From Candidatus Abyssobacteria bacterium SURF_5 (GTDB lineage Bacteria > Abyssobacteria > SURF-5), in assembly GCA_003598085.1 (NCBI GenBank), contig QZKU01000128.1, positions 62,001 through 126,000 on the forward strand: DNA of 64,000 nucleotides, written 5' to 3'. A program made the position numbers and the translations under genes. Each line of letters starts with the position of its first letter. The first letter of the stretch is position 1. Below the pieces are notes generated by a model, which had not been told where the DNA came from, made no database searches, and saw nothing but the letters and a program-made list of their open reading frames with translations. Positions 5,354 to 33,712 of the stretch are shown in pieces.

Positions 5354-7843
5354 GTGTGTGGTAATCTTAGTTTTTGCAGTATCTTTGGGGTTTTCAGCCG
5401 TGCTGCCAAATTTTACCGCGTGAATTTCCACTTGAAAAAGGCTATTCCATACTTCTTCAGCATTTTCCTTCTGGCGGTTGCAGTTGGTGTGTATTGGCAT
5501 TTTAATGTCATAAAGCCCGCCATTATTCCTGCGCATCATACGAATCTGGACGCTTACAATCTTTATGTCCCTTTTTATGCGTATACGGCTGAGTGCCTTC
5601 GCAATCTCGATCTTCCTTTATGGAATCCGTACCAATTGTGTGGAGTGACCTATCTCGGTGTTCTGCAGGGCGCCGTTTTTTATCCTCCTGTTCTTCTGTT
5701 CGCATTCATTTCACCCGCGCAAGCCTATTCATTCTATGTGATGCTGCACATGGTTCTGGGGGGGCTGTTTCTTATTCTGCTGATGCGGCACCTGAAGGTG
5801 TCGTGGATCGGTTCAGTTGCGGCGGCAGTTACGTTCATATTTTGCAGCAGCACCGTTTCAAACATTTTTGGCCCGGCTTTTCTGGCAAACAGCGTCTATT
5901 TCCCACTGATGCTCCTGTTCGTCTTAAAGGTTTTTGAGACCGGCAGGGTTAAATGGGCGCTCGCGCTTACGGCGGCCGTTTTGCTGCCGCTGCTGGCGGG
6001 GTGGATACAGGCGCTGGTTTACTGCGTGTACGCGCTCCTTGCATTTGTTATCGCCATTGTCATTCGCTCGCTGTTTGCGGGCGCATCTGAAACCCGATAT
6101 ATCAGACGGGGGCTGATTCTTTTGGCGGTCAGTGCGTGTCTATTTTTTGTTTTGGCAGCGGTGCAGATACTTCCGGTCATGGAGTTGGGGCTGCAGTCGA
6201 CGCGCTCATTCGATCAGATGTCCGAGGAAATGGTAACCATCAGGAATACGGCCATATATGGTCCGTATCGAATCGTCTATGATCTGGTCAATTCCCGAGG
6301 CGGGATCCTTCCGTTTTTTCTTTACGTGGGCGTGTTTCCTCTTTTGTTTGCGCTCCTTGCCCTGGGGAACAGGAAGTTGCGCTTTTTTGTCCTTTTCTTC
6401 TACGGGCTTGCCGGCTGTGCAGTGCTGTTGTCGATGGGGCCGCAGACACCGCTGCACGCGCTTTCCTTGAGTCTTCCCTTGATGAAGATGTTCCGGGCGC
6501 CATTCCGATTTCTGTTCCTGTACGCTTTTTCGGCGGCGATATTATGCGGCATCGGATTGGATGTACTGCTGGCGAGGGTGCGGTCGCTGGACGCCGTTCG
6601 GGCGAGACGAGCCATACTGGGCGCCACTGCAACGGTTGTTTTCTTTGCAGTTCTTCTTGCAGTCTGGCCGGCGGAAGAGACGGGCGGGGAGTCTTTGCGT
6701 AACGTTCTGTTTGCGGCATCTCGATGGCCGCTCTATCTGTTGGCATTTTCTGTCGCTATTCTAATCTTTCTCGTTCTTCCGATAAACGATCGGCTGAGGC
6801 GATATGCAGTCGGCGCGACGAGTCTTCTTTTGATTCTGATCGATCTTTTCGCCGCGAATCATAATTATTTTTATCTGCCCGAGAAAAATCCGGAGTTGTT
6901 CGGGAGACATGATCGCGTGATAGAGAAGCTGAAGACGCTTATGGATATTGACAATTGCAGGGTGTTTGTCGCGGCGGATTTTCTCGATTTCTCGTATAAC
7001 ATAAAAGCCGGCCAACTAAAGAAAATTTCGATGGTGACGGATTATGAGAATATGAATCCGACCTTATACAACCGCTACTGCAATTACATTTTTGGAAGAC
7101 AGGACCAGCGGAGCAGGGAATTTTTTTGGGGATGGTTCAATCTGGACGAGAAGCCGGTGCATCCTGAGTTTTTGGATTACATGAGCGCGCGCTACATCTG
7201 GGTCAGCCGCTCGTATGCGGAGGATGGCTCACAGGCTGTCAAGGAGAACGTACTTTCCATTGCAGGCGGCAATGTTGTGTATGCGGACGAGGAGAATCTG
7301 GTGTTTTTGAATGAGAGGGCGATGCCGCGCGCGTATATCGTTGGGGGAATCCGGGAGGCCGATTCCGAAGAGCATCTGCTTGAGGTACTGGCGTCTGACG
7401 AATTCTCACCTTCCGAGGAAGTTGCCGTTTTAAGAGGGGCGGTGGCTGCGACAAGTGGAGGAGCTATGGCTTCCGCCGGGTCAAAGGCCGTCATCGTCTC
7501 GATGGAGCCGGAGGAGGTACGCATAACGGCGTATGCCGACGGCGCGGGCTATCTGGTTTTGACCGACCAGTATTATCCAGGTTGGGAAGCGACCGTGGAC
7601 GGCAGACGGGTGGACATCTTCCGGGCCAACTTTCTGTTCAGGGGGATTCCCCTGGAAGCGGGGGAGCATGAGGTTGTGTTCCGATACAGGCCGAAGAGCT
7701 TCATGATTGGCGCGGGGGTCTCGACGGCAGGAATTGCGGCTCTCATTGCGTGGGCGGTTTGCGGCAGGGCGCGGAGCAGAATCAGTTTTCGACGGCGGCT
7801 GAAAGAATCTCCCCGGGAAGGCGTCGCGGCCGCATCACGGTAA
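5354..7843 (+). CDS. YfhO family multi-pass membrane protein
   Basis: The protein (829 residues from the GTG at 5354) has about a dozen hydrophobic helices over the first 500 residues and a soluble C-terminal domain with LVLTDQYYPGWEATVDG and FRYRPKSF, the hallmark of the YfhO/DUF6541-like membrane family. Early after the first helix it has the GT-C-like pattern DAYNLYVPFYAY and LPLWNPYQ. YfhO proteins are thought to be lipid-linked sugar glycosyltransferases that decorate wall polymers or lipids outside the membrane. The start is uncertain: no strong ribosome binding site is seen, and a GTG at 5420 is an alternative. Its 3' end overlaps the convergent gene by 62 bases. A paralogue lies at about 20-22 kb. 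Confidence 0.8.
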   Translation: MCGNLSFCSIFGVFSRAAKFYRVNFHLKKAIPYFFSIFLLAVAVGVYWHFNVIKPAIIPAHHTNLDAYNLYVPFYAYTAECLRNLDLPLWNPYQLCGVTYLGVLQGAVFYPPVLLFAFISPAQAYSFYVMLHMVLGGLFLILLMRHLKVSWIGSVAAAVTFIFCSSTVSNIFGPAFLANSVYFPLMLLFVLKVFETGRVKWALALTAAVLLPLLAGWIQALVYCVYALLAFVIAIVIRSLFAGASETRYIRRGLILLAVSACLFFVLAAVQILPVMELGLQSTRSFDQMSEEMVTIRNTAIYGPYRIVYDLVNSRGGILPFFLYVGVFPLLFALLALGNRKLRFFVLFFYGLAGCAVLLSMGPQTPLHALSLSLPLMKMFRAPFRFLFLYAFSAAILCGIGLDVLLARVRSLDAVRARRAILGATATVVFFAVLLAVWPAEETGGESLRNVLFAASRWPLYLLAFSVAILIFLVLPINDRLRRYAVGATSLLLILIDLFAANHNYFYLPEKNPELFGRHDRVIEKLKTLMDIDNCRVFVAADFLDFSYNIKAGQLKKISMVTDYENMNPTLYNRYCNYIFGRQDQRSREFFWGWFNLDEKPVHPEFLDYMSARYIWVSRSYAEDGSQAVKENVLSIAGGNVVYADEENLVFLNERAMPRAYIVGGIREADSEEHLLEVLASDEFSPSEEVAVLRGAVAATSGGAMASAGSKAVIVSMEPEEVRITAYADGAGYLVLTDQYYPGWEATVDGRRVDIFRANFLFRGIPLEAGEHEVVFRYRPKSFMIGAGVSTAGIAALIAWAVCGRARSRISFRRRLKESPREGVAAASR

Positions 7844-9824
7844 AGTATCCGATCGTCGCAACCGGTTCATACAGTTCCGCAACGGCGCCGGCGATTTCGG
7901 GATATTCCGATGAATAACCCTCATATGAGAGAATGTCGTTTGAAAGGCTCGGCATTCGCGAGATAATAACGAGCTTCGGCAGGTTTGTTCTGATTTGGTC
8001 CGCTGTCATTCGTATCTCTTCCTCTGAAAAATAACCCGGCCACAGATACACGAACTTTGTCGGCGCCATCCTCTGAGTGAGCACGTTGACGATCACGAGC
8101 GAGGGCAGCGAAGCGACGGTATCGGTCGGCGCGGTGTTGGCCCGCACGTATTCGATGAGTTCCTTGAACATCTGCGCATAGCCGGTGTCGAAAAAGATTT
8201 GTCCGCCCTCGACATCCATCCGTGAGATCGGTCTCGACTCGAGCGACCAACCCGCGGGAACGCGCTTGAATGCCAGCAGCAGCCGCGCCTGATTTACGGC
8301 CCGTCCTGCGAACAGGAGAAAAAGGGGAACCGCGAGGACGGCTATCGCCGCGACGCGAATCGATAAAAGGCGGGATTCGATTCTTGCGGATGCGATGAGC
8401 CGATGGACAAGGAAGAATGCGAGCGGAATCCATGGGGCGAATCCGAAGGTGAAATGATTCAGGTCCGCATAAGGAAACGTTTGCTGGAAGAGGAGAACGG
8501 CGTAAACGAACAGGCACAGCGAGAACAGGACCTCCTTTGAGGCGGCATTTTTCTTGACGTTCCGGATCAGGAAGATTGTGAAAACGGCGGTGATCGCCGC
8601 CGGGAAATACAGGTAAATGTTCAGGTCCCATCGCTTCGAGAGGAAATACCTGAAAGCGGCTCCCTCGACTATCCAATTGGCGAACAGAATCAGAAGAGCG
8701 GCGGCCGCTGAAGAGCAGATGATGACAACTCCTCGATTTGCGCGATTACGGATCATGATGTGGCCGATAGCTGCGAGCGCGGCAAGAAAGGCCGGGAACA
8801 GAAACGAAATCGGAGAAAATGTCGGGAAGGCGACGACCATCTCGTTGAGGCGCCAGCTTTGTCCGATGAGAAGGACGTTTCGGAAAAGGTCGAGCCAGCC
8901 CACCTTTGGCGCGAGATAGCAGAACCATGCCGCTATGAGAGCAATGAATCCGCCGGACAAGACAAGTTGATAGAGTACGAGGTTTCTGAATGAGGAGCGG
9001 GCTTCGGTTCGGTAGTAGGGGCGGTTGAGCAGCCACAGGAGCAGACCGGCGAGCAGGAGGGCCGGCAGATGCAGAAAGGCGATGTTGCTGACGGTGTGCC
9101 GCGAGACGTAGGCAAGTGGGAGTGCGGCGGCGAGCACGAGGACAAGAAGGAATTCGGCCGACCGGGCGACGAGGCAGTCCGCATGGTTTCCTCTTCTCCA
9201 GAACAGGCCGATCAGGCCGTAGGATGCGAGAACGAATACGCCGATGCTTTGTTTGAAGGTGAAGGCTGCGCCCGCGGCAATTCCGGCGAGCAGAACAGGC
9301 AATAATCTGTCGTTCTCGACGGCTCGGATGAGAACGCAGAGGCCGGCGAGCCCGAACGGAACGGCGTACCACGAGCTGTAGGGGATATTCAGGATCGGCG
9401 GTCCCCAGAAGAGGAAGAGGAGCGCGCACAACGCGGCGAGATGATTGGGCATGATCTTTATGGCGATGAAAAAGAGCAGCAGGCTGCTGAGAACGGTGAC
9501 GAAAGCGAGGCCGTACTTGACTGCGAGCAGGTCGGGTCCGAAGAGTGTGAAGAGGAGTCCGTTGACGAAGTAAACGCCGGGCGGCCAGAACGGATCGAAA
9601 TCGAGATACGGCGTTTTCCCGAGCGAAAGCAGGTACGACTTGTAAAGGATGAATCCCTCGTCCGAATGATGCCACGGGACGGGGAACGAGAGTTCGAAGG
9701 GAGCGGCGAGGATGGCGGCAATCAGGATGAGAGGAAGAAGGAAGAGGAGAAGGACATTCGGTTTTGGATTTTGGATCCCGGATCGGTGTCCGGGACAAGC
9801 TTTGGATTTTGGATTATTATTCAT
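7782..9824 (-). CDS. ArnT/GT39-like multi-pass membrane glycosyltransferase candidate
   Basis: The 680-residue protein has many hydrophobic helices and, in the first extracytoplasmic loop, HHSDEGFILYKSYLL followed by FWPPGVYFVNG; an acidic pair there is typical of GT-C enzymes that use polyprenyl-phosphate sugars. A soluble C-terminal tail follows. The donor and acceptor are unknown. The first ~22 residues are encoded by a dispersed AATCCAAAATCC/TCCCGGA repeat (9766-9816) and there is no good ribosome binding site before the ATG, so the true start may be further inside. The 3' end overlaps the convergent YfhO gene by 62 bases. A distant paralogue lies at 25.1-27.1 kb. Confidence 0.7.
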   Translation of the reverse strand: MNNNPKSKACPGHRSGIQNPKPNVLLLFLLPLILIAAILAAPFELSFPVPWHHSDEGFILYKSYLLSLGKTPYLDFDPFWPPGVYFVNGLLFTLFGPDLLAVKYGLAFVTVLSSLLLFFIAIKIMPNHLAALCALLFLFWGPPILNIPYSSWYAVPFGLAGLCVLIRAVENDRLLPVLLAGIAAGAAFTFKQSIGVFVLASYGLIGLFWRRGNHADCLVARSAEFLLVLVLAAALPLAYVSRHTVSNIAFLHLPALLLAGLLLWLLNRPYYRTEARSSFRNLVLYQLVLSGGFIALIAAWFCYLAPKVGWLDLFRNVLLIGQSWRLNEMVVAFPTFSPISFLFPAFLAALAAIGHIMIRNRANRGVVIICSSAAAALLILFANWIVEGAAFRYFLSKRWDLNIYLYFPAAITAVFTIFLIRNVKKNAASKEVLFSLCLFVYAVLLFQQTFPYADLNHFTFGFAPWIPLAFFLVHRLIASARIESRLLSIRVAAIAVLAVPLFLLFAGRAVNQARLLLAFKRVPAGWSLESRPISRMDVEGGQIFFDTGYAQMFKELIEYVRANTAPTDTVASLPSLVIVNVLTQRMAPTKFVYLWPGYFSEEEIRMTADQIRTNLPKLVIISRMPSLSNDILSYEGYSSEYPEIAGAVAELYEPVATIGYFTVMRPRRLPGEILSAAVEN
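9766..9816. repeat. Dispersed AATCCAAAATCC + TCCCGGA hairpin repeat
   Basis: This copy (minus orientation) is near-identical to 27576-27630, and its hairpin part also occurs at 30805-30832. The core is an inverted repeat TCCCGGA/TCCGGGA separated by six bases, flanked by AATCCAAAATCC runs. It is read through by the start of the GT39-like ORF. Confidence 0.6.
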
Positions 9825-9920
9825 ACAAGGTTATCGCACGAAGAAGGGGACCCCTGTCACGCCAATGATTATAACATAAATGCATTAATGATTTTACATG
9901 GATTTTCTAAATGGATTTGA

Positions 9921-9949
9921 TTGACAAGTATCTGAGCTGAAAATATAAT
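9921..9949 (+). promoter_or_regulatory. Perfect-consensus sigma-70 promoter of the six-gene acyl-transfer operon
   Basis: TTGACA (9921-9926), a 17-base spacer, and TATAAT (9944-9949) match the housekeeping consensus at every position. Transcription should start near 9956, about 75 bases before the MaoC-like gene. No operator palindrome was recognised in the leader, so expression may be strong and constitutive. Confidence 0.75.
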
Positions 9950-10030
9950 TGTTACCAAGTAAGAAGCGCGCCTTCTTATTTAAAGCGGCAAGTTTCTGAA
10001 AGAATTCAGTTTATTGCATGGGGTGGCATC

Positions 10031-10471
10031 GTGGCGGGGATTGCTTCATTCCGTTTCTCGGATTTGAGCGAAGGGCAAGAATTTGCCTTTGATGTTGCAA
10101 TTCGGGCGGAGGACATCGACACGTATGCCCGGGTGTCCGGCGATGTGAGTCCGTTGCACATGGATGCCGCTTTCGCAAAGCAGAGGGGGTTCCGCGGGAG
10201 AGTCGCACACGGCGGGTTACTCGGCGCTTACATCTCGCGAATGGTGGGCGTTCATTGTCCCGGACAAAATGCGCTGCTGCAGGCGCTGGACCTGAAGTTT
10301 TTGAAGCCGTTCTACGAGGGAGATACGGCGCACGTCACAGCGCAAGTGGATATGCTGTCGGCGGCAACGCAGGTGATGGTGCTGAAGGTACAGATAACTG
10401 ATGCGTCGACTGGACAGGTCCATGTGCGGGGAAAGGCGCAGGTTGGCTTCACAAGGAGTATCGGGGAATGA
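10031..10471 (+). CDS. MaoC-like (R)-enoyl-CoA/ACP hydratase
   Basis: The 146-residue single hot-dog domain carries the hydratase-2 motif in YARVSGDVSPLHMDAAFA (about residues 34-51), with the Asp and His that bind and activate water in (R)-specific enoyl-CoA hydratases, then GRVAHGGLLGAYIS. It would add water to a trans-2-enoyl thioester or remove it from a 3-hydroxyacyl thioester. As first gene of the operon with an FkbH-like protein and an ACP, it probably works on an ACP- or CoA-bound acyl group. The GTG start is preceded by a weak GGGGTGG. The stop overlaps the next start as ATGA, so translation is coupled. Confidence 0.85.
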   Translation: MAGIASFRFSDLSEGQEFAFDVAIRAEDIDTYARVSGDVSPLHMDAAFAKQRGFRGRVAHGGLLGAYISRMVGVHCPGQNALLQALDLKFLKPFYEGDTAHVTAQVDMLSAATQVMVLKVQITDASTGQVHVRGKAQVGFTRSIGE

Positions 10472-12102
10472 AATCGGATGTTGATTTTATCCTGATTTCG
10501 CAGTCGGAGGTTGTGAATTACAGTCAATATTCCGAACTGCCTTTGGATAGAATCGACATGTACCGCGAACTGGTTTTTCCGCGGATGATATATTATCGAG
10601 ATGCGTTTCGCTCACCGATCGATCTGCTCAACATGCTTCGGGACGGGGTTTCGTTTCAAGATGCCTCTTACGAGATGCGCAGGCGCCTGTTGAGTGTTTG
10701 GAATCTTCCCTCGCTCAGCGGCATGCACATTGCCAACTACCTTCTGGCGCACGGCTTTCAAACGTGCATCATCAATAACTTCGATGCTGAATTTGACCGT
10801 TTCCATGAAGTTTATACTGCCTGCAAGACGCCTCCTCTTGTGGGCATTTCATCAACATTTCATTTGAGTTTTTCAGAGCTCAAGCGGATTATCGGGCACT
10901 TGCGCAAGGTTGATCCCGAAATGGAAATTGTGGTTGGTGGAGCTTTTGCCAATGCAGTGGTGCAGAATGCGCCAGTGGAGCGTTTTGAGAAGCCGATGCG
11001 CAGATTCGGCATTGACTATATACTGCATGGGTTTAATTCGGAAACGGATTTACGGGATCTATTGATGAAAAGGGGCAATGGAGGACTACAAGATATATCG
11101 AATATGGCATACCTTGAGCGAAGGAATTCAGGGGATGCAATTTTCCAAACAACCAAGAGCCAATGGCATCCGGCAGTACTGAATGAGATGCCGGCGCTGT
11201 GGGATCAGCTCGATCTTCCGTTTGTCAACAGGACCGTTCAGCTTCGTACGTCTTCCGGCTGTCCTTTTTCCTGCGCATTTTGTTCGTATCCGAAGGTAGC
11301 GCACGGATTCCACCTGATGGATGCGGGAATTCTGGAGCGGCAGATACAGAGCGTTCTGAAGGTCCCCGGGATTCGGCAGATCGTCTTTGTTGATGACACT
11401 TTCAACGTGCCGCGCGTGCGATTCAAGGAACTATGCCGCTTATTCTCCAAATATGAGTTCGACTGGTTTTCCTTTCTGAGGGTCCAATTCATAGATGACG
11501 AGATTGCTCAGCTCATGCGCGAATCAGGCTGTCGCGCTGTTTACCTTGGGATCGAGTCGGCGAGCGATCAAGTTCTGCGGAACATGAACAAGCGGGCTAC
11601 CAGAGAAGATTATGAGCGCGGGATTCGGTCTCTGCGAAAATATGGTATCCGCACAGTTGCGGCTTTTGTTATCGGATTTCCAGGAGAAAATGAGCGGACT
11701 CTCAGGGAGAACCAGGACTTCATTGAATCCTCGGGAATAGACTATTACACGCTGAAGGAATTCTACTACATGGAGCACACGCCGATTCATTCAGACCGGG
11801 AAAGGTACAAGCTAACCGGCTCGGGTAATAAGTGGTCGCATGAAACGATGAACTCAGTGCAGGCATACGAGGCGAAGATCGGGCTTTTTCAGGAAATCAA
11901 GAATTCATGTTTTATCGATCCTGACACCAGCCTGTGGAACCTGGTTGTGCTGCTGGATGCCGGCTTCTCTCTGGATCAAGCGCAACTCATCCAGCGAGAG
12001 ATCAACGTTATCTTGAGGGAGCAACTGAACGGATCATATGACAGCAGTCATCCGGCCTTTGGCAGGCTCAAGGAGCTTGTAGCCGGTCAGGAGGCGCCAT
12101 GA
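10468..12102 (+). CDS. B12-binding-type radical SAM protein
   Basis: The 544-residue protein has an N-terminal part with the layout of a cobalamin-binding fold (VGISSTFHLS, then IVVGGAFANAV about residues 125-165) followed by a radical SAM barrel with CPFSCAFC (Cys265, Cys269, Cys272) that should hold a 4Fe-4S cluster, and later GIESASDQVLRNMNK and FVIGFPGENE, the usual SAM-site motifs. Class B members methylate unactivated carbon or phosphorus, and overall it resembles the PhpK-like group. The N-terminal part lacks an obvious DxHxxG motif, so cobalamin binding is uncertain. It is coupled to both neighbours by ATGA overlaps, which implies that it modifies the intermediate handled by them. Confidence 0.8.
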   Translation: MKSDVDFILISQSEVVNYSQYSELPLDRIDMYRELVFPRMIYYRDAFRSPIDLLNMLRDGVSFQDASYEMRRRLLSVWNLPSLSGMHIANYLLAHGFQTCIINNFDAEFDRFHEVYTACKTPPLVGISSTFHLSFSELKRIIGHLRKVDPEMEIVVGGAFANAVVQNAPVERFEKPMRRFGIDYILHGFNSETDLRDLLMKRGNGGLQDISNMAYLERRNSGDAIFQTTKSQWHPAVLNEMPALWDQLDLPFVNRTVQLRTSSGCPFSCAFCSYPKVAHGFHLMDAGILERQIQSVLKVPGIRQIVFVDDTFNVPRVRFKELCRLFSKYEFDWFSFLRVQFIDDEIAQLMRESGCRAVYLGIESASDQVLRNMNKRATREDYERGIRSLRKYGIRTVAAFVIGFPGENERTLRENQDFIESSGIDYYTLKEFYYMEHTPIHSDRERYKLTGSGNKWSHETMNSVQAYEAKIGLFQEIKNSCFIDPDTSLWNLVVLLDAGFSLDQAQLIQREINVILREQLNGSYDSSHPAFGRLKELVAGQEAP

Positions 12103-13967
12103 AGGCGGAGCAGAAGCGTGAAGAGATAAAGGCGGCCAAGTCGGCAAGCAAAGAGGGCAAGCACCAGGAGGCTTTCCAGCGACTGCGGGGGATCGCCGAT
12201 CCTTACGATGATTTTTCTCTTCAGTCACGGTATGCGAAGGTATATCAAACGATTCGAGGGAATCTGGGTCTGCGGCCGATTCGGCTCGCTCTGGTTGGCG
12301 GGAGCACGCTTGAACATTTCTCCGATGTGCTTGCTTTCTGGCTCGCGATGGAAGGTTTTCGGCTGGAGTTGTACCTGTCGCCGTATGACACGATGCGCCA
12401 GACGATCCTGGATGCGGGAAGCGATCTGTACGCGTTTAACCCCGAGCTCGTCTGGATTTTCTGCACAGAGAAGGATGTTCGGATTTCCTTGTCCTCGGCC
12501 GCCGGCCATTCTCCCGAGATCATTTCGCAAGCCGTTCAGTCCGCCGTGCAAGAGTGTTCGGAGCTATGGCAGACAATCAATTCCCGCTGTTCCGCCTATA
12601 TTATTCAGAATAATGCAGACCTGCCCTGCGAAAGGATTTTTGGGAATCTCGAATGCGCGGTCGACTGGAGCCGATTGAATTTGCTGCGCCGGTTCAATCT
12701 TGAGCTTGCCTCCCGATTGCGGGCGGGGATCACCATATTGGATTTCGAGTACATTTCTTCCGCGTTCGGGAAATATCGGTGGTTCGACCATCGGTACTGG
12801 TTCCACTCGAAGCATGCCTTTTCGTTGGATGCGGCGGGACTGGTCGCATTTCATGCGGCGCGGCTGATCGGCGCTCTAAAAGGCGCGGCGAAGAAGTGCA
12901 TTGTACTGGATTTGGACAACACGCTCTGGGGAGGCGTAGTAGGAGACGACGGGCTTGCGGGCATCCGGCTGGGGGTTTCCGCGGACGGCGAAGCATTCGT
13001 AGCATTTCAGGAATATCTCAAGGGACTGGCGGATCGGGGAGTTTTGTTGGCAGTCTGCAGCAAGAATGAGGATGGAACTGCAAAAGAGCCGTTTCTGAAG
13101 CACCCGGACATGCGGCTGAAGCTGCAGGACATTTCCGTTTTTATCGCCAATTGGAATAACAAGGCGGATAACATCTGCACCATTGCAAAGACCCTCAATA
13201 TCGGACTCGACTCCCTGGTGTTCATTGATGATAACCCTGCCGAGCGAGAGCTGGTTCGGTCGCTCTTGCCGATGGTGACGGTTCCGGAGATGCCGGAGGA
13301 TCCCGCGGATTACATCCGAACGCTTGACCGGCTGAGCCTTTTCGAAACCGTCTCATTTTCGAGTGAAGACAGGAAGCGCGGGCAGATGTATCGGGAGAAC
13401 GCCGCCCGTCAAGAGCATCAGGAGAAATTTACGGACCTCACGAGCTTTCTGGCGAGCCTGGATATGGAAGCCACGGTTGGGTCGCCTGACGCGTTTCATG
13501 TGAAGAGGATGTCGCAACTAATTAACAAGAGCAATCAGTTTCACCTGACCGGCACGCGCTACACGGAGAGCCAGATTGAAGGATTTGCCGCCGATCCGGA
13601 TTATATGGTTCGCTATTTCAAGCTGAAGGACAAATTTGGCGATAACGGTTTGATCTCGGTTGTCGTCTTGAAGCGGGAGCAGGCGGATCTCTTGATCAAC
13701 ACGTGGGTGATGAGTTGCCGGGTGTTGTCGAGGGGGATGGAGGAATTCATCTGCAACGAGATTCTGTCTCTGGCCCGGAATGGAGGTTGCAGCCGCGTGC
13801 TCGGTTGCTATGTTCCCAGCAGCAAGAATCAGCTTGTTCAAGGATTATTTGGGAGGCTGCAATTCAGGAAGGTTTTACAGGAGGAGAACGGCGCAACGCA
13901 TTGGGAATATGTATTGGAGCAAGGGAATCTGCCGTTCCAGACCCACATTCGCCGATCGGAGAGTTAG
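12099..13967 (+). CDS. FkbH-like HAD-IIIC protein (glyceryl-ACP-type synthetase/phosphatase)
   Basis: The 622-residue protein has three parts: an N-terminal SGNH-like region starting LALVGGSTLEHF, a central HAD domain with DLDNTLWGG (Asp271, Asp273) and FIDDNPAERE (Asp377, Asp378), and a C-terminal GNAT-like region. This is the FkbH architecture. Characterised members take 1,3-bisphosphoglycerate, remove its phosphate and load the glyceryl group onto an ACP. The ACP gene follows 16 bases downstream, so this protein probably charges it with a glyceryl or related 3-carbon unit. Whether the C-terminal part transfers a further acyl group cannot be told. The start overlaps the radical SAM stop as ATGA. 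Confidence 0.9.
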   Translation: MKAEQKREEIKAAKSASKEGKHQEAFQRLRGIADPYDDFSLQSRYAKVYQTIRGNLGLRPIRLALVGGSTLEHFSDVLAFWLAMEGFRLELYLSPYDTMRQTILDAGSDLYAFNPELVWIFCTEKDVRISLSSAAGHSPEIISQAVQSAVQECSELWQTINSRCSAYIIQNNADLPCERIFGNLECAVDWSRLNLLRRFNLELASRLRAGITILDFEYISSAFGKYRWFDHRYWFHSKHAFSLDAAGLVAFHAARLIGALKGAAKKCIVLDLDNTLWGGVVGDDGLAGIRLGVSADGEAFVAFQEYLKGLADRGVLLAVCSKNEDGTAKEPFLKHPDMRLKLQDISVFIANWNNKADNICTIAKTLNIGLDSLVFIDDNPAERELVRSLLPMVTVPEMPEDPADYIRTLDRLSLFETVSFSSEDRKRGQMYRENAARQEHQEKFTDLTSFLASLDMEATVGSPDAFHVKRMSQLINKSNQFHLTGTRYTESQIEGFAADPDYMVRYFKLKDKFGDNGLISVVVLKREQADLLINTWVMSCRVLSRGMEEFICNEILSLARNGGCSRVLGCYVPSSKNQLVQGLFGRLQFRKVLQEENGATHWEYVLEQGNLPFQTHIRRSES

Positions 13968-13983
13968 GGAAGGAGGGATAAGC

Positions 13984-14238
13984 TTGACAGTATCGGATGG
14001 AGAGAAAAGGAAAGCGATACGGGAGCGGCTGAATGTCGTGTTTCAGGAAGTCTTTGATGATGACGCGATAGAGATCTTTGATGAGATGACGGCCGAAGAT
14101 ATTGATGAGTGGGATTCGCTCATGCATATCACGCTGGTGGTCGCCGTCGAGAAGGAATTTGATGTCAGGCTGAACGCCGCCGAAATCGGCAAGCTGGAGA
14201 ACGTCGGCGCCATGATCAGCCTGCTCCAGAATCGATAG
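13984..14238 (+). CDS. Acyl carrier protein
   Basis: The 84-residue acidic protein has the ACP fold pattern with EWDSLMHI; Ser45 is the expected 4'-phosphopantetheine attachment site. The TTG at 13984 was chosen because GGAGGG lies about eight bases upstream; a longer frame from 13780 would overlap the FkbH-like gene and adds nothing ACP-like. It sits between the FkbH-like gene and an MBOAT gene, so it most likely carries the acyl unit made by the upstream enzymes to a membrane transferase, as DltC carries D-alanine. A dedicated ACP like this is distinct from the fatty-acid ACP by context. Confidence 0.9.
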   Translation: MTVSDGEKRKAIRERLNVVFQEVFDDDAIEIFDEMTAEDIDEWDSLMHITLVVAVEKEFDVRLNAAEIGKLENVGAMISLLQNR

Positions 14239-14285
14239 GCAAATCAGGCCGGATTGTCATGCTCGTCAGTCCGGGAAAAAGACAT

Positions 14286-15716
14286 ATGAATCTCATTTCC
14301 TTTCGTTTCCTGGCTCTTGTAGCAGTTGGTCTGCTGCTCTTTCACAGCTTTCGCTCCCTCACCTGGCGGAGGCTCGTCCTGCTGGTCCTGAACGTGACGT
14401 TCATAGCGAGTTTTGCAAACAGCCCTCTTGATCTGTTTCCGCTGGCTGCATTTTTAATGCTCGGCTATCTTTTCATTTTGGTCGCGCACTCGCAGAAAAG
14501 CAGGATGAATTTTGTTGCAGGCATATTTCTGCTTTTGCTGGCATTCGTTTATCTGAAGAGATATTCACTCTTCGATTTTCTCCAGTTCTGGGAGAATCCA
14601 TATGTCGTAGTGGGGCTGTCGTTCATATTTTTTCGGGTGGTCCAGATCTTTGTGGATACGCATCAAGGAGCGCTGGTGGAGCGCATTTCTGCATTGGAGA
14701 TGTTCAATTACTGCTGCAATTTCCTGACGTTTGTTTCCGGCCCCATCCAGCGTTTCCAGGATTATCGCGAACAGGAGAAACAGCTTGCGTCCATAAATAT
14801 CACAGATCGGACAGCATATCTTGCATTCTCGCGCATTACGAATGGCGTCATGAAATTGGCGCTTATTTCGACGGCCTTCGAGTGGTTATTTGAATGGATG
14901 AAGATTCATTCCGGAGAGGCATCCTATCTTTGGGCGACTTATGCCGGCGCAGGCCTGAGCTATTTTTTGCAGTTATTTTATAATTTCTCCGGTTACATGG
15001 ATATCGTTGTCGGAATCGGATTCCTGTTCGGATTCAAATTGCCGGAGAACTTCGACTCACCGCTGGATTCAGAGAATTTTCTGGATTTCTGGAGCCGCTG
15101 GCATATCACACTTTCGGAGTGGTTCAAGCTGTACCTGTTCAATCCGATTGTGAAAGCTTTAACTCGTCGTTGGATGCGAATGGGTCTGGTCCCATACTTC
15201 GGTGTGTTCGCGTACTTTGTCACGTTCTTCCTCATGGGAATGTGGCATGGGACTACTTTCATGTTCATGATTTATGGCCTGTTTCTTGGTCTGGGGATGG
15301 CCATCAATAAATTCTATGAGATCGAAATGCGGGCGCTGCTGGGGAAGGCGCGATTCAAGAAGCTTCGGGGGAAGTTTTTGTACAGAATATTTTCGAAGAG
15401 CCTTACGCTTACATATTTTGCAATCGCTCTCACCGCTCTCTGGATGAAATGGGATACTTTCACCTACGTCCTTGGGCGCCTTGGCTGGATTGGCATTCTC
15501 GAGAGCCTGGGTCTATTTATTTTGGTAATCGGCTTCATTCATGTAGGTTATATGGCGGTACGCATCTTTTTGGCTCGTTTTCGTGACCATCTGGGAGAAC
15601 TGGATCAGAGCCGTTCATTTCAGCAAATACATCTCGCCGCTCGCGTGGTTATCGTGATTTTATTCTTGATCTCGTCACAAATCTCGATGCCGAAATTGAT
15701 TTACGGTGGTTTCTGA
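14286..15716 (+). CDS. MBOAT family membrane O-acyltransferase
   Basis: The protein (476 residues from 14286) has about ten hydrophobic helices and the MBOAT signatures FWSRWHITLSEWFKLYLF near the middle and GMWHGTTFMFMIYGLF with the catalytic histidine. Relatives are DltB (D-alanyl transfer to teichoic acid) and AlgI (alginate acetylation). DltB takes its acyl group from a carrier protein, and here an ACP gene lies directly upstream, so an ACP-bound acyl donor is inferred. The acceptor would be an envelope polymer or glycolipid. The first methionine at 14259 is less likely because it places an odd MLVSPGKRH segment before the first helix. It overlaps the SGNH gene by one base. Confidence 0.9.
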   Translation: MNLISFRFLALVAVGLLLFHSFRSLTWRRLVLLVLNVTFIASFANSPLDLFPLAAFLMLGYLFILVAHSQKSRMNFVAGIFLLLLAFVYLKRYSLFDFLQFWENPYVVVGLSFIFFRVVQIFVDTHQGALVERISALEMFNYCCNFLTFVSGPIQRFQDYREQEKQLASINITDRTAYLAFSRITNGVMKLALISTAFEWLFEWMKIHSGEASYLWATYAGAGLSYFLQLFYNFSGYMDIVVGIGFLFGFKLPENFDSPLDSENFLDFWSRWHITLSEWFKLYLFNPIVKALTRRWMRMGLVPYFGVFAYFVTFFLMGMWHGTTFMFMIYGLFLGLGMAINKFYEIEMRALLGKARFKKLRGKFLYRIFSKSLTLTYFAIALTALWMKWDTFTYVLGRLGWIGILESLGLFILVIGFIHVGYMAVRIFLARFRDHLGELDQSRSFQQIHLAARVVIVILFLISSQISMPKLIYGGF

Positions 15717-16711
15717 TGAGAGCCATCCTGCGACAAACGGTGCGGTTATTTGTTTGTGTGCTCCTGCTGTACTTCATTCTTGCTCTTCTGACGGAGGTTA
15801 TCTCGCTGAGGAAGAGGTACGTTGATATTGGTGATGAATGGAGAGACGCATTTCCCTTTCTTACCTTTGACGTCTGCAGATTGCAGCGCAATGAAAAACC
15901 AAAGCTGATCATCCTGGGGTCATCAAACTGCATGGTCGGATTCAGGCCGGAACATTTGCAGCCTCTGTTTCCTGAATACGAAGTGGCCAATCTTTCGATT
16001 CCCGGAGCAAACATGTCCGATATTCGGCAAATTGTGGAATTACTTCAGTTGCTTTTGCCGCGTCATGTTCTCGATAAATCTCTTTTCTTTGTCGGAATGT
16101 GGTATGGGTCGTTTTCCTGGGAACGGTCGCCCGTGGTTAATGAGTCGCTGGTAAAAATAGGCCTTTACAAATGGAATGGCGAAAGCATTCAAAGCGTTGT
16201 TCCCGCTGAAAATATGGACCTGTTCGTTCGATTGCTTCGTCCTCTTGTCCTGTGCAGAGAGTTGTTGGAACGAACAAGAGAGGCTTTCATGAATGTCGGT
16301 GCTGACAGCTTTCTGCCCGAAGGCACGGAATGTGGAGCGAATTCTGAAGAAAAGACCATAGGGCTCCTGCAGTATTACGAATCATTCTACGGTGGGCATG
16401 CTGCAAGCGAGTTTAACGAATTGCTGGCAATTTGCGACCTGATTGAATCTGGCGGAGGCGAGCTTGTGCTTATTGACATGCCGCTGCCGCGATGGCATCA
16501 GGAGGCGTCACTCTTTCATTTTGAGTATCAACAGCGGAAACAACCGTTTCTGGAGGAAGCTCTTCAATATCAATGCGTAAAATATATAGATATGATTGAT
16601 GATCCTGATTTGTCGGATGAAATGAATTATCGTGACGCCACTCATGCGTGTGGGCCAGCCCAGGAAATGTGGAGCAGGGTTTTAAAGGCTCATTTCGAGC
16701 TGATAAGATGA
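15716..16711 (+). CDS. Membrane-anchored SGNH-type (DltD/AlgJ-like) protein
   Basis: The 331-residue protein has one N-terminal membrane helix (about residues 7-28), then KLIILGSSNCMVGF with the nucleophile serine at 69 or 70, NLSIPGANMSD with the oxyanion-type residues, and near the C-terminus YRDATHACG, the Asp-x-x-His pair. This is the SGNH hydrolase order. In Dlt and alginate systems such a protein acts outside the membrane together with the MBOAT to hand the acyl group to the polymer. The start codon overlaps the stop of the MBOAT gene (TGATGA), so the two are translated together. It is the last gene of the operon; no clear terminator follows. Confidence 0.8.
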   Translation: MRAILRQTVRLFVCVLLLYFILALLTEVISLRKRYVDIGDEWRDAFPFLTFDVCRLQRNEKPKLIILGSSNCMVGFRPEHLQPLFPEYEVANLSIPGANMSDIRQIVELLQLLLPRHVLDKSLFFVGMWYGSFSWERSPVVNESLVKIGLYKWNGESIQSVVPAENMDLFVRLLRPLVLCRELLERTREAFMNVGADSFLPEGTECGANSEEKTIGLLQYYESFYGGHAASEFNELLAICDLIESGGGELVLIDMPLPRWHQEASLFHFEYQQRKQPFLEEALQYQCVKYIDMIDDPDLSDEMNYRDATHACGPAQEMWSRVLKAHFELIR

Positions 16712-16931
16712 GAGCTTTCAGCCTGTATTATAACACTTAAGCCTCAAGCAGAACGCAATTCAAGCTCAACCTGTACGCTCACAAGACCCCTCTATTTCTC
16801 ACATAGGTTACAGCATAAATGTTCTTGCATCTCTTCTTGCAACAAATTATTTATGATGAGAAAAGTTCCCTACTTTTAAACTTAAGAAGACAGAGGTTTT
16901 TTATCGTGTGAGCCTAGTTCGACTTCATCTG

Positions 16932-18359
16932 CTACTCACATACGGGTAAAGAGTATGTAATCACAAGATCAGCGGCATTCGCATTATTGTAGCTGCTCTC
17001 CACCCCATAAAATTGTCTATATTGAGGAATGGTAGAGGGATATACGGCACGTAACCCAAAATATCGAGACTCGGGATCTTCTGGATTATATTCAGTATCA
17101 TAGATCCTTGCCCGGACTAGAGCTGCAATAGGTGGAGATTGAACTATCTCATCCTTAAAGATTTGAGATGGTAGCTCCCAATAAACTACATCCTCCGATC
17201 GCGGACTGATATTTAGCAAGGCCTGATCATCTACATAAGGTGAGAATCCCACAACATTCCATATGCCGTCAGGAGCTAACGCTTCCAGTCGAACCATCAC
17301 GGCATCATTATCAAAGTCAACAGAGGATTTCACCTTTATGTAAGCATCCTCTATGATCGCTTCTACTGGAATGTCAAGTTCCCATCTCCAGAAGGGATGG
17401 TATTCAGAAACCGCATAGCCAGCCCACAGATCACCATAACGATCGACTTTATTAAACCAATGAACGCAATTTCGACACTGCTGAGTGGGCTGCCAAAACC
17501 CCATGGCAAATGTGTCGTCGTAAATGCCTTTCACTCTATAAGTCTTTGTAACTGGTCCGCTACCACTGAATACTGTTCCTGTATTATGTGCAACTATATG
17601 GTCTTCCAGGTTAAATGTGCAGAGGCCATTGTGGAGCACATTACTTACAACAACATTCTCGACGCAAGCAGAATCCAACCGTAGAGATGCAGCTGTTCTC
17701 GTATTATACGTGGAACCTTCTTGGAGGACGTTGCCGGTGAAAATATTATGATTACCTCTTGACAAAACTGTCTCTATGGCGGCGCCTGGTGTCCCTGGGA
17801 CTGGTGTTCCGAAGAAACAGCCGGATACTCTCATTTCCGATTGCTCTGCCTTTAGCGCATGACTCTTGGTATTCTCCACAATACAATTAGTAATTACCGT
17901 ACCGGATTTTTCAACACCGCCTATATAGAATCCACAGTTATCCGAATCTGAGATGTTTAGATTTTCAAATTCGCAGTCTGCGGCCGTGCAATTAATCGCG
18001 TCGACCCCGGTTCCTGAAGAAGATACTTTCAGATCACATATCTTCACCTGTGTCCCCGAGACTGTAATTGAGGGGTCAATCCCATTGCCGTTAATTTCCG
18101 TGGACTTTCCTTGCCCTTGGAGGACTATATTAGAAGAGCTAATGACGATGCTTTCTGAATAGGGCTTCCGGTCTGCGATTACTATGCCGCCGCCAGACGA
18201 TTCGCAAGCATTTATAGCCAGTTGCAGTGTTCCGTAGTTCCAGGCTTTAATGATGTAGATGTGGTCTGCTGTCGCAGGGGTTGTCAATCCTGCAGAGAGT
18301 AAAATGACGGCTAATGCGGCAAAAGGAAATATTCTGGCGTAAGGATCTGACTTTTTCAT
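16932..18359 (-). CDS. Secreted right-handed beta-helix protein
   Basis: The 475-residue protein starts with a Sec signal peptide (MKKSDPYARIFPF, a hydrophobic core, then ATA before the likely cut). Residues about 50-280 repeat short strands such as IVISSSNIVLQG, VKICDLKVSSSG and CEFENLNISDSD, with regular NG and G turns, which is the pattern of pectate-lyase-like parallel beta-helices. The last ~180 residues look like a separate beta-sandwich domain with a CRNCVHWF cysteine pair. It may be a glycan-binding or glycan-cleaving surface protein; no catalytic set was recognised. The start was set at 18359 by a GGGGGGT ribosome binding site. The gene and its neighbour are visibly AT-richer than the flanks. 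Confidence 0.7.
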   Translation of the reverse strand: MKKSDPYARIFPFAALAVILLSAGLTTPATADHIYIIKAWNYGTLQLAINACESSGGGIVIADRKPYSESIVISSSNIVLQGQGKSTEINGNGIDPSITVSGTQVKICDLKVSSSGTGVDAINCTAADCEFENLNISDSDNCGFYIGGVEKSGTVITNCIVENTKSHALKAEQSEMRVSGCFFGTPVPGTPGAAIETVLSRGNHNIFTGNVLQEGSTYNTRTAASLRLDSACVENVVVSNVLHNGLCTFNLEDHIVAHNTGTVFSGSGPVTKTYRVKGIYDDTFAMGFWQPTQQCRNCVHWFNKVDRYGDLWAGYAVSEYHPFWRWELDIPVEAIIEDAYIKVKSSVDFDNDAVMVRLEALAPDGIWNVVGFSPYVDDQALLNISPRSEDVVYWELPSQIFKDEIVQSPPIAALVRARIYDTEYNPEDPESRYFGLRAVYPSTIPQYRQFYGVESSYNNANAADLVITYSLPVCE

Positions 18360-18571: not shown

Positions 18572-19462
18572 TCAATCATTCATGGATTGGAATGGGAAGT
18601 TAGAGGAAGTCAAGGTATCCTTCAAAAGAGTTTTCAGCAGGTCCCTCCCCGCTGAATTCAGATGAATGAGATCTATAAAATATTCCGGACCAATTGCGTC
18701 GGAAAGGTCTATGACCTGAAGATGACTACTTGTTATCATTGTTTTGAATATAATCATGTTTCTCAATATTTCGTTAATCAGGGGATCAGGACATTCATAT
18801 TTTAACGGAAGTACAGGAGAAAGAATGAAAGTCACATTAGGGTGGGCCGCGGCAATGTCATTCCAAACGGGTCGAACATCTGTATTCTGATTAAGAAGCC
18901 AGAATTGTACTTGCATCAAGTCGGGCACCATGTTCGGAGCCTTCGCACCGATGGACTGACAGATATCCTTATAAATTTCATCATCTTCATCATATCTTCC
19001 ATCATAGTTAAACTCCGGCAGGAAGGGAGGAAGGGGAAGATGAAATCTATCGAGCAGGATAATCCGCAGGGTCATCAATCCCCGGCGCAGGCGACTTCTG
19101 ATTTCCGGCCGAGGCGGGCGCGGATCAAGGGCATCGCGAAAAGTTATGAAATAATATATACTGTCATCCGGCCTGCAATAATTCTCGATCACCTCGACAT
19201 GCTCATATGTAAAACTTGCAGGGATTCCCAGATTCTGAAAATCTGCAAATTCACCAAGATAAGATGCATATGAACCGCCGACAATTACCTTTTTCGAGGC
19301 CGGCGAGTGTTGATATTTAAGCAAACGACGGTCGAAGTCTGATAGATGCCATTCCCAAGTATTCCTCGGAATTCTTGCCAGAGGTAAGAAGCACTGTGTG
19401 AGGTAGCTCGAAACAATGAAGAGGATAGCTGTCCCAAGGTACCAGGATAAGATTTTTCTCAT
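18572..19462 (-). CDS. Membrane-anchored SGNH-like protein of unknown substrate
   Basis: The 296-residue protein has an N-terminal membrane helix (residues 5-25), KKVIVGGSYASYLG with a candidate nucleophile Ser64, NLGIPASFTY as second block, and YFIDLIHLNSAG near the end with the Asp264/His267 pair. This order is that of SGNH hydrolases anchored outside the membrane, as in DltD and acyltransferase partners. It is not a close copy of the SGNH protein at 15.7-16.7 kb. There is no MBOAT directly next to it; it stands between a beta-helix gene and a YfhO gene, so a role in modifying the same surface glycan is inferred only from the neighbourhood. Confidence 0.6.
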   Translation of the reverse strand: MRKILSWYLGTAILFIVSSYLTQCFLPLARIPRNTWEWHLSDFDRRLLKYQHSPASKKVIVGGSYASYLGEFADFQNLGIPASFTYEHVEVIENYCRPDDSIYYFITFRDALDPRPPRPEIRSRLRRGLMTLRIILLDRFHLPLPPFLPEFNYDGRYDEDDEIYKDICQSIGAKAPNMVPDLMQVQFWLLNQNTDVRPVWNDIAAAHPNVTFILSPVLPLKYECPDPLINEILRNMIIFKTMITSSHLQVIDLSDAIGPEYFIDLIHLNSAGRDLLKTLLKDTLTSSNFPFQSMND

Positions 19463-19675: not shown

Positions 19676-22030
19676 CTAATTATCCTTTATTATAGCGGAT
19701 TTGGGGGCAAAATTCCCGGATTCCGCCGGTTTCTCGGAGATCTCCGGTCGCGGGTGCGGACGGGTCTTTATTTCCCGCCGCTCACGAAGAAGTAGCGGAG
19801 TTGCCAACAAAACGGTTGTCAGCGTCGCCGCTATTCCAGCGAACAGGCTGAGGGGTCGATATTTGAAAATCACCTCGTGGTTGCCCGGCGGCACTTCGAC
19901 CGCGCGGAAGAGCGAGTTGGCGCGCCAGATCGGCCGGCGGACGCCGTCGACGAGCGCCTGCCAGCCCGGATAATAGCTGTCAGTGAGGACCAATAGGGCC
20001 GGTCTTTCCGTCTCGACCTGCAAGCGCACCTGATTGAGGCCGTAGTCGTCGATTTGGCCGGCGCCGGGATTTTCCGGCTGTTCCGCTGAGAGAAAAGAAG
20101 GCGCGGCGTTTTCCAGAACGACTGATGTTCGCAACCTTGCCATATTGTCCTCAATAGCCTCGAGGCTCTCCTGCTCATTCCGGGTGAGTACGTACCTGTC
20201 GACCAGATACGCCCGCGGCAGAGCATGTCTATTTTCGTAAATGAAGAAGGGATTCTCTTGCACGGTGTGCCAGGCCATGTGCTGATCTGCCGTCCCGGCT
20301 GCGCCGATCGGGTCGCGGGTGAGCGCATATTGGAGCGAGGTCAGCCCCAGCAGATCGGGATGCGCCAGGAGGAGTTGCTCGGTATAATCGAAAACGCCAT
20401 AAAAGAATCCAAACGTCAGAAACTTCTCAAAATTGTTTGGCCCAACCGCATGGAGGATATAGTTGCTCCATCGTTTCAAAGTGAAGCCGGAATAACTAGT
20501 GAGATTGTTGAAGCGGAACATGGTGCCGGTATTGTAGGATTTAATGATTGATTCCGGGAAAGTTACCAGGACACGGCTCTGTCCTGCATTCTCTTTGGCC
20601 CATTCGACGCGCTGATCGTGAAACGCATCAGGCTGGGGCGTAGAGATTTGTGAACTGCCATGGGAAACCGAGAACACATCAAGGAGTACCACCAGGGCCA
20701 TGACCCAATGTGTCAGGTTTCTTTTTGACAGGGGGAGTTTGTGCGCCAATGGCAGGGCGAAGAGGATGGACAGGCCGAAGGCGCAATAGAAGACCAAGCG
20801 CCATTTGCTGTGCGGCGAACCGATCCACGGAACAACTGCAAGCGCGCAGATTACAGCAATAAAGAGCAAGGCAAATAACCAAGTCCTGCTTAGTTTCCGG
20901 CTGTCTGGATCCCGCATCCGGAAAGGCATTTGGCTCAGTTCCGACAAACCGATGCCTGAAAGGGCTGCCAGGGGAAAGAAAGAAAAGGAGACCATTCGTG
21001 ACGGCCTCTCGAAGACATCGGCCAGTGGTATTCTCGTAAATATTGAAAGAAATTGAAAGTAATGCCCGAGCAGAAATAACGCCAGAAAGACAAGAGCAGC
21101 CGAGAGAGCAACCACAGTCTTTCGATGATTGCGTGAGGCAAGCGCAAACGGGAAGAAGAACAGTGCGCTGCCGAAATAGTATGCCCTCAAGAGAATGCCG
21201 AACATATGGCCTTCGATGCCGAGAACGCCTATTTCAAGGAAGTCCGTTTCTGCATTTGTCTTGCTGACGGCGCTGATAGTGCGTACCGATTGAGAGGAAA
21301 GCTCGATGGTAGGGAACAGTTGGGTAGCTGCCAGTCCAGCCAGCAGGAGAAAAGCAATTCCCGCATACGACCATTGGGCAGCGATCGGCCTGAAGCCGGA
21401 ACTCCGCCAGGAATATAAGGTCATAGCGAAAAGGTATATGCACAGAAGCAGGCAGATATAAAAAAAGAACTGATAAAAGCCGGCGATGAAACAGATTGCC
21501 AGCGAGGCCGCCAGTGCAGCGGAAGATGTGAAACGGGGCCTGTCGAAGAGCCGGTGTGCCAGCAGAAATATGATCGGTGTCCAACAATAGGTGGAACCCG
21601 CGTATAACGCCTGGGTCTCCGCCGCGACCGCGTAGCCGAAAATTCCCGCTGCCATGACGGTTACCGCCCAATTCAGCTTCAGGTAGCGGGCGTAGAGGAT
21701 CATGCCGGAGAAACCGATGAGCACGGTCGCGACCTGGATTGCCAGCAGGGCGCGGACCGGCTCGAGCGGAATTGCCAGCCAATTGACCGGATAAAAGAGA
21801 TTGACGTACGGCTCGGGAAGGAATGGCGCTCCGGTTGCGAGATAGGGATTCCAGAGAGGAAATATTCCTACTCTCATGCTTTCTCTGATAAAAGTGATGC
21901 AAGGCAGATAGAGAGAGTAGATGTCGTTAGCGTACAGTCCCCATCCTGCACGTTTGGCTTCGAGCAGGGACAGCACCAGAAACGAAAACACCGCTGCCAG
22001 AGCCAGCGCCGGCAAGAGTCTGTTTCTCAT
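19676..22030 (-). CDS. YfhO family multi-pass membrane protein
   Basis: From the ATG at 22030 the protein has 784 residues. It begins with a basic start MRNRLLPALALA and a membrane helix, then the GT-C-like loop LYANDIYSLYLPC and FPLWNPYLATG, about a dozen helices, and a C-terminal domain with LVLTDSYYPGWQALVDG and FKYRPLS. The same end motif occurs in the YfhO gene at 5.4-7.8 kb, so the two are paralogues. A putative role is transfer of a lipid-linked sugar to a surface polymer. An upstream extension to 22117 is open but has no membrane or family sequence and was left out. Confidence 0.8.
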   Translation of the reverse strand: MRNRLLPALALAAVFSFLVLSLLEAKRAGWGLYANDIYSLYLPCITFIRESMRVGIFPLWNPYLATGAPFLPEPYVNLFYPVNWLAIPLEPVRALLAIQVATVLIGFSGMILYARYLKLNWAVTVMAAGIFGYAVAAETQALYAGSTYCWTPIIFLLAHRLFDRPRFTSSAALAASLAICFIAGFYQFFFYICLLLCIYLFAMTLYSWRSSGFRPIAAQWSYAGIAFLLLAGLAATQLFPTIELSSQSVRTISAVSKTNAETDFLEIGVLGIEGHMFGILLRAYYFGSALFFFPFALASRNHRKTVVALSAALVFLALFLLGHYFQFLSIFTRIPLADVFERPSRMVSFSFFPLAALSGIGLSELSQMPFRMRDPDSRKLSRTWLFALLFIAVICALAVVPWIGSPHSKWRLVFYCAFGLSILFALPLAHKLPLSKRNLTHWVMALVVLLDVFSVSHGSSQISTPQPDAFHDQRVEWAKENAGQSRVLVTFPESIIKSYNTGTMFRFNNLTSYSGFTLKRWSNYILHAVGPNNFEKFLTFGFFYGVFDYTEQLLLAHPDLLGLTSLQYALTRDPIGAAGTADQHMAWHTVQENPFFIYENRHALPRAYLVDRYVLTRNEQESLEAIEDNMARLRTSVVLENAAPSFLSAEQPENPGAGQIDDYGLNQVRLQVETERPALLVLTDSYYPGWQALVDGVRRPIWRANSLFRAVEVPPGNHEVIFKYRPLSLFAGIAATLTTVLLATPLLLRERREIKTRPHPRPEISEKPAESGNFAPKSAIIKDN

Positions 22031-22644
22031 GCGGTTTCGATCCCGGCAGATTCGGAAGTGATGGATGAATACGGAGCAAACGGAGGCGTGATGATTCCGA
22101 CAAGAAGGCGCGGGCACTTATGGCGCCACCGACGGCTGGACCTCCCTTGCAGTCGGCTGTTGAGCGTGAGCCTCTTCTTCATCAAATATTCCACGTGAGT
22201 GTGCCCGGTTTCCTTTTTCTGTCCGGTCATGCGAATGCAAAGCAACAAAAACATTATACCACCGCGGGCGATTTTTATCGACGCAGAATGCGGGTGCTCC
22301 TTTATCCATATCTGATGGTGGCAGCGGGTTACATCTGCCGAGCGCCGCGGGATCATTCCCGCGTGAAAATCGGGGGATGTGTTTTTTAACGGATTGGCTT
22401 CCGGGGCCTTGGCGCCTTTGTGGTTAATCTTTGAGGCTATAGGGGAGACCGGCCGAATGAATTCGGCCCTACCGGCTTGGACGCATTCGACCGATAGGTG
22501 CGTTCCCCACGGTAGGTGCGAATTTATTCGCACAGCCTTCGGCGCGGGAGCAAAAGCTTTGGCCCCCGAATGGAATACAACCACTAAGACACAAGAACCG
22601 CATAGAAACAAGGCGCGGCAAAGCGCAGAAAGCCCCCCTCACCC
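22031..22644. repeat. Gene-free spacer with dispersed palindromes
   Basis: No gene is supported. The right half holds palindromes of one family: GGCCGAATGAATTCGGCC (22451-22468) and GTGCGAATTTATTCGCAC (22516-22533), joined by GGTAGGTGCG-type linkers. A related GCGAATGAATTCGC occurs at 27204-27217 beside similar linkers. Nothing recognisable is seen in the left half beyond the leader of the YfhO gene. Confidence 0.55.
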
Positions 22645-22671
22645 AAACCCTCTCTTCAAGGGCGAGGGTTT
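22645..22671. repeat. Hairpin repeat at the 3' end of the MFS/spermidine-synthase gene
   Basis: AAACCCTC (22645-22652) and GAGGGTTT (22664-22671) form a perfect 8-bp stem with an 11-base loop. It belongs to the widespread CCCTCACCC-type hairpins. The stop codon of the minus-strand gene lies in its right arm, so it may also protect or end that message, although no T-run follows. Confidence 0.5.
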
Positions 22672-27141: not shown

Positions 27142-27177
27142 CAAGAATTTCTGTTTGACCTTATTTATGACAGGATG

Positions 27178-32366: not shown

Positions 32367-32367
32367 A

Positions 32368-33513: not shown

Positions 33514-33610
33514 TGGTCGGTCCCGGAGCAAAAACACGCGACAGAGGCTAAGGGAAGTATATCGAGGCGGGTGGAAAGTGTCAAATGGTTTTGGGCTTCG
33601 TCTTCGGGAA

Positions 33611-33712
33611 CAGAGAAGTTTCGGGGACGGGAAGGGACGGTGGTTTTGCTTCGGGGACAGGCGCCATTCTACGCCCTTCGGGCCATAAATGGAGCCAGTC
33701 CCCTTCGCTTCG
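33611..33712. repeat. REP-like GGGGACAGGC element
   Basis: The main unit (33648-33712) starts GCTTCGGGGACAGGCGCCAT and ends AATGGAGCCAGTCCCC, with an inner GCCCTTCGGGC hairpin. The two ends pair imperfectly, so the whole unit can fold. A partial TTCGGGGACGG copy precedes it. Its relative at 29716-29820 has the same ends. Such units are often mobilised by REP-associated tyrosine transposases; none is in the window. Confidence 0.6.

Follow-up and report, generated by a model that had tools for sequence, protein, structure and literature searches.

A putative carrier-protein-dependent, Dlt-like acylation operon with a cobalamin-type radical SAM protein in Candidatus Abyssobacteria bacterium SURF_5

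Teichoic acid D-alanylation by the Dlt system (DltA, DltC, DltB, DltX, and DltD) relies on an acyl thioester of a carrier protein, on the MBOAT protein DltB, and on a partner with an SGNH fold. The MBOAT-SGNH systems other than Dlt use acyl-CoA and have no carrier protein, and an acyl-Tyr shuttle motif, FXYXXF, is characteristic of MBOAT-SGNH systems (PMC12148441). In polyketide pathways, FkbH makes glyceryl-ACP, in which the glyceryl group is held by an acyl carrier protein (ACP) (PMC7489565). Campylobacter jejuni has an fkbH-domain gene, cj1302, in its flagellar glycan locus (PMC7099621), and its flagellin carries di-O-methylglyceryl pseudaminic acid (PMC3068675). We infer that cj1302 is linked to this glyceryl group.

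In the window, i.e., the whole 64-kb stretch of Candidatus Abyssobacteria bacterium SURF_5 DNA that was analysed, six open reading frames lie on one strand in the order MaoC, radical SAM (rSAM), FkbH, ACP, MBOAT, and SGNH, all at the positions given by a first-pass annotation (Table 1). Judged from their sequences, they probably encode an ACP-dependent, Dlt-like acylation system for an exported glycan, in which FkbH would replace DltA and glyceryl-S-ACP would be C-methylated and hydrated or dehydrated before export. The tight gene coupling noted in the first-pass annotation was borne out by the junction gaps (−4, −4, +16, +20, and −1 nt in order), and all three overlaps are real (ATGA at 10468 and at 12099, stop with start at 15716). 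Its perfect TTGACA-N17-TATAAT promoter upstream of the set was also found, at 9921-9949, as the sole perfect match in the window; we designate it promoter-like on the basis of this consensus match. When up to one mismatch was allowed, three promoter-like sites were found in the window, compared with 0.10 expected by chance, and the other two are one-mismatch sites located elsewhere. No Rfam family matched the region 9400-17200. The active-site motifs are intact across the operon proteins.

Table 1. Positions and assignments of the promoter-like site and the six operon genes in the window
Feature	Position	Strand	Length (aa)	Remarks	Basis
Sigma-70-type promoter-like site	9921..9949	+		TTGACA-N17-TATAAT	consensus match
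MaoC-type hotdog hydratase/dehydratase	10031..10471	+	146	GTG start	PF01575, 67 bits
Cobalamin-type radical SAM (rSAM) protein	10468..12102	+	544	probable C-methylase	PF04055, 86 bits
FkbH (HAD-IIIC) acyl-ACP loading enzyme	12099..13967	+	622		TIGR01686
Acyl carrier protein (ACP)	13984..14238	+	84	TTG start (13984) behind AGGAGG	PF00550
MBOAT, DltB-like	14259..15716	+		C-terminal acyl-shuttle tyrosine	PF03062
Membrane-anchored SGNH-fold acyltransferase (predicted)	15716..16711	+	331		motifs and predicted fold

FkbH scored 295 bits against the TIGR01686 cut-off of 147, and its HAD motif (DLDNT at residue 271) and Cys540 are invariant in eight homologues. The ACP scored 21.9 bits (PF00550 cut-off, 20.8), and its W43-D44-S45 segment is invariant in ten homologues. 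The features of a glyceryl-ACP synthase, namely the domain over its cut-off, the HAD motif, and an adjacent ACP, are all present. The proposal that FkbH and the ACP serve as a glyceryl loader is supported by the family score and motifs, by the adjacent ACP, and by analogy with the FkbH precedent (PMC7489565), from which the glyceryl reading derives.

The rSAM protein has the cysteine motif CPFSCAFC at residue 265 (CxxxCxxC) and a Gly157-Gly158 loop. Its B12-binding domain scored 29.9 bits, under the Pfam cut-off of 32.1, and a cobalamin-type Rossmann domain is predicted in the structure model (mean pLDDT 86.5). The best-matching folds were TsrM, OxsB, MgmA, CysS, AprD4, and TokK. The matched PDB entries of CysS and TokK carry pantetheinylated substrates, which provides a precedent for action on carrier-type thioesters. 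The best curated family is PhpK (TIGR04479; 387 bits, with the next family at 92 bits), and the methylation reading is based on these relatives. The tree of the rSAM proteins is poorly resolved, has long branches, and supports no conclusion here.

Because the PhpK family methylates phosphorus and is by far the best-scoring one, we considered that the rSAM protein might be a true P-methylase and that the operon might handle a phosphinate-containing group. However, its 387 bits fall short of the cut-off of 600, as do the scores of its homologues (404, 382, and 328 bits), while the radical SAM protein of locus L026 reaches 652 bits. In addition, FkbH supplies a carbon acid, and no PEP mutase (TIGR02320) over the cut-off was found in the window genome or in the genomes G003, G319, and G678. 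P-methylation is therefore disfavoured, and we consider it highly improbable. The score below the PhpK cut-off and the lack of a confident PEP mutase in the genome favour C-methylation instead. The L026 protein (L026:98-1693), a bona fide member of the PhpK family, shows only 29% identity and lies by itself in a genome (G671) that lacks FkbH.

A second alternative is that the rSAM protein is a radical diol dehydratase, or some other enzyme without methylating activity (AprD4-like), by which a hydroxyl group would be removed from glyceryl-ACP. MaoC would then act on the product, and the exported group would be lactyl- or 3-hydroxypropionyl-like and unmethylated. The glyceryl group is a vicinal diol, and AprD4, which dehydrates 1,2-diols by a radical route, belongs to the closest folds and is the best PDB sequence match. 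Related gene sets that contain MaoC and a short-chain dehydrogenase (see below) also suggest glyceryl deoxygenation. Nevertheless, the rSAM sequence is far closer to the PhpK methylases (387 bits) than to the AprD4 family (56 bits), and the top fold is that of a methylase, TsrM. We thus regard the dehydratase as unlikely and retain C-methylation as the preferred reading.

MaoC has the active-site motif G37-D38-x2-P41-x-H43, which is invariant in four homologues, and (R)-enoyl-CoA hydratases are its closest relatives with solved structures. The chemistry of MaoC enzymes requires a hydrogen at carbon 2 and a hydroxyl group at carbon 3, and a glyceryl group fits because it offers both. Dehydration of glyceryl by MaoC would give a pyruvyl-type thioester or, with a methyl group on carbon 3, a 2-oxobutyryl thioester. 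Methylation at carbon 2, on the other hand, would block this dehydration, which counts against our main explanation and makes the role of MaoC puzzling.

The MBOAT protein exceeds the PF03062 cut-off, and its catalytic His330 is invariant. In the PDB it matched DltB structures only, and its score for the DltB family TIGR04091 (170 bits) lies below the cut-off of 375. In the C-terminal LIYGGF (Tyr482), which we counted as an FXYXXF-type motif, the tyrosine and the last phenylalanine are kept and the first residue is leucine instead of phenylalanine; the homologue in locus L009 (described below) has FVYKYF. The SGNH protein had no family match in a profile search. It has an N-terminal helix, and its G68-x-S70 and D307-x2-H310 motifs are invariant. 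Its predicted fold, for which the alignment was made of the window and genome loci only, matches PatB first, followed by GDSL esterases and, lower, DltD; the model is moderate, and its middle part is poor. The Dlt-like logic that had been suggested for this operon is upheld by analogy, since a carrier protein, a DltB-like MBOAT with an acyl-shuttle tyrosine, and an SGNH fold are all present, and the likeness would be one of mechanism, not of membership.

Two other proteins in the window resemble this pair. A second MBOAT at 27823-29223 (minus strand; PF03062, 112 bits) has the textbook shuttle end FIYFQF and does not adjoin the operon. A 296-residue protein at 18572-19462 (minus strand) without a family match shares the G-x-S and D-x-x-H motifs of the operon SGNH protein and is possibly, to judge by them, a second SGNH transferase.

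Relatives of the set were sought in one scan of genome contigs and in searches that sampled about 1,100 genomes in overlapping groups, and these yielded three further close rSAM homologues (51–53% identical). In a Thiotrichales MAG (L009), all six genes are present in the order FkbH-ACP-MBOAT-SGNH-MaoC-rSAM, with the MBOAT split over two reading frames. In locus L022 (genome G319), the genes for PseB, C, F, G, and I are followed by MaoC-rSAM-FkbH-ACP and next by a KAS III gene; no MBOAT-SGNH pair was seen there. In L064 (G678), the set is broken, and the rSAM gene stands beside a C-terminal remnant of FkbH and the start of a MaoC gene. The gene set thus recurs in bacteria that are not related. 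The rSAM and MaoC genes therefore appear to be true parts of the set, as previously proposed, because they recur with it in L009, L022, and partly in G678. A chance neighbourhood of the six genes would find support in their mixed G+C contents (0.47–0.58) and in nothing beyond; the genes overlap, and the same set occurs in changed order in other genomes. Since L009 and L022 carry the set, this explanation was rejected, and the chance that it is correct is negligible.

Homologous loci without rSAM and MaoC had been named in advance as a sign of such a chance neighbourhood. The loci of the close rSAM homologues did not show this loss, which answers the objection, although both genes are missing from many FkbH-ACP-MBOAT loci. 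FkbH, ACP, and MBOAT without a close rSAM homologue are found in L016, L018 (pSymB of Sinorhizobium meliloti, near capsule export genes), L023, L091, L093, and L094, and FkbH with SGNH- or MBOAT-type genes is found in L092 and L095. The base module FkbH-ACP-MBOAT-SGNH stands alone in other loci, and base modules without rSAM are common. These observations, together with the shifting of MaoC and rSAM as a pair among loci, would agree with a plain glyceryl transfer by FkbH-ACP-MBOAT-SGNH and an unrelated MaoC-rSAM pair that merely shares the operon. However, the pair is coupled to FkbH-ACP both in the window and in L022, L009 has the pair plus the full set, and distant rSAM relatives also adjoin ACP genes (L065, beside an ACP and an MBOAT; L068, beside two ACPs and FkbH). 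We therefore find an unrelated pair improbable and prefer a pair that belongs to the pathway.

Two modules, MaoC-rSAM and FkbH-ACP, are joined in differing orders, with MBOAT-SGNH as one outlet. The arrangement in L022, where MaoC-rSAM-FkbH-ACP lies between the pseudaminic acid genes and KAS III, indicates that these four genes work together and can feed different outlets, each of them on a glycan. Whether they form a portable cassette in which a C-methylated short acyl group is assembled on a carrier protein for surface glycans, with MBOAT-SGNH or the pseudaminic acid pathway as the outlet, is in our estimate evenly balanced. The L022 cluster (L022:764-15989) comprises the pseudaminic acid genes, the four genes, KAS III, and a 188-residue protein without assignment, and probably gives a nonulosonic acid that bears an unusual acyl substituent.

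Other genes accompany the base module elsewhere. MaoC and a short-chain dehydrogenase are present in L023 and are fused in L019 and L093. Similar glyoxalase-fold (VOC) proteins are encoded next to FkbH-ACP-MBOAT modules at L018:2891-3307 and L068:4300-4734, and are perhaps epimerases of the acyl group; an annotated VOC gene is present in L016 as well. In L066 (8940-12388), the gene of a PhpK-like protein (315 bits), another distant relative of the rSAM protein, precedes that of an amino acid adenylation protein (TIGR01733, over the cut-off), which takes the place of FkbH; no ACP was seen just downstream. We infer from the gene contents of these loci that one base machine may be combined with exchangeable acyl-tailoring enzymes. 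No relatives were found in 297 Bacteroidota genomes, in a search without a positive control, or in two other genomes of the window's own phylum. Among viral contigs, the matches were all to generic radical SAM proteins, with at most 29% identity, and plasmid matches of the rSAM protein were at most 26% identical.

In the pathway that we propose, FkbH would take glyceryl from 1,3-bisphosphoglycerate, as is the precedent in its family, and load it onto the ACP. The rSAM protein would C-methylate the ACP-bound acyl group, and MaoC would add water to it or remove water from it. The product may be a modified C3 or C4 acyl group, such as C-methylated glyceryl, 2,3-dihydroxybutyryl, or 2-oxobutyryl. 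Following the acyl-Tyr and acyl-Ser transfers of the MBOAT-SGNH mechanism (PMC12148441), the MBOAT protein would receive the acyl group of the ACP on its C-terminal tyrosine, at the external face of the membrane, and the SGNH protein would accept it on its serine and esterify a surface polysaccharide. Acyl product and acceptor glycan are both putative. The genes around the operon include some that look like membrane glycosyltransferases (YfhO at 5354-7843 and 19676-22117; PMT_2-like at 7782-9824 and 25165-27219), which fits a surface glycan as the acceptor. Also encoded in the window, on the minus strand, are an 802-residue protein with an MFS-like membrane part and a spermine-synthase domain (22670-25078) and, from a pair of overlapping genes (31086-33867), members of the 2-hydroxyglutaryl-CoA dehydratase D-component family.

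If this assignment is correct, it would conflict with the description of non-Dlt MBOAT-SGNH systems as acyl-CoA users devoid of a carrier protein (PMC12148441). FkbH would then act in envelope chemistry, beyond its polyketide role, and radical C-methylation would enter envelope acylation and the decoration of surface glycans. Given the small size of the cassette, every step is open to in vitro study through mass measurements on the ACP.

The combination with a radical SAM methylase-like protein was earlier noted as one not known from a described system, and we likewise found no counterpart in the open-access literature searched, where no paper combining three of FkbH, radical SAM, MaoC, and MBOAT was found. 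The nearest literature parallel is found in C. jejuni, where a pseudaminic acid locus includes an FkbH-domain gene and the glycan bears a methylated glyceryl group, comparable to L022; there, however, the methyl groups are on oxygen, and we did not meet rSAM, MaoC, or MBOAT-SGNH in the descriptions of this locus. The operon shares FkbH, a stand-alone ACP, and modification of the acyl group on the ACP with the glyceryl-ACP operons of polyketide pathways (glycerate utilisation and methoxymalonyl-ACP), whereas it has no polyketide synthase or oxidising dehydrogenases, and its outlet is MBOAT-SGNH. PhpK-family P-methylases and other cobalamin rSAM methylases share the best family match and the fold class with the operon rSAM protein, which differs in its score under the cut-off, in having no phosphonate pathway in view, and in its place among carrier-protein genes. 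The PatA-PatB pair and other MBOAT-SGNH pairs have in common with the operon an MBOAT with a fused C-terminal FXYXXF-type motif and the SGNH fold, but here an ACP and its loader are encoded in the operon. With Dlt, the operon shares the carrier-protein acyl thioester, the DltB-like MBOAT, and the SGNH-fold partner. In contrast to Dlt, it has FkbH instead of DltA, with no AMP-binding gene; it has no separate DltX gene, the shuttle motif being on the MBOAT itself, as in PatA; and it adds the acyl-tailoring MaoC and rSAM in a locus that is not a Gram-positive teichoic acid locus. By its gene content, the operon would work like Dlt without being a member of that system, as a variant within the MBOAT-SGNH kind.
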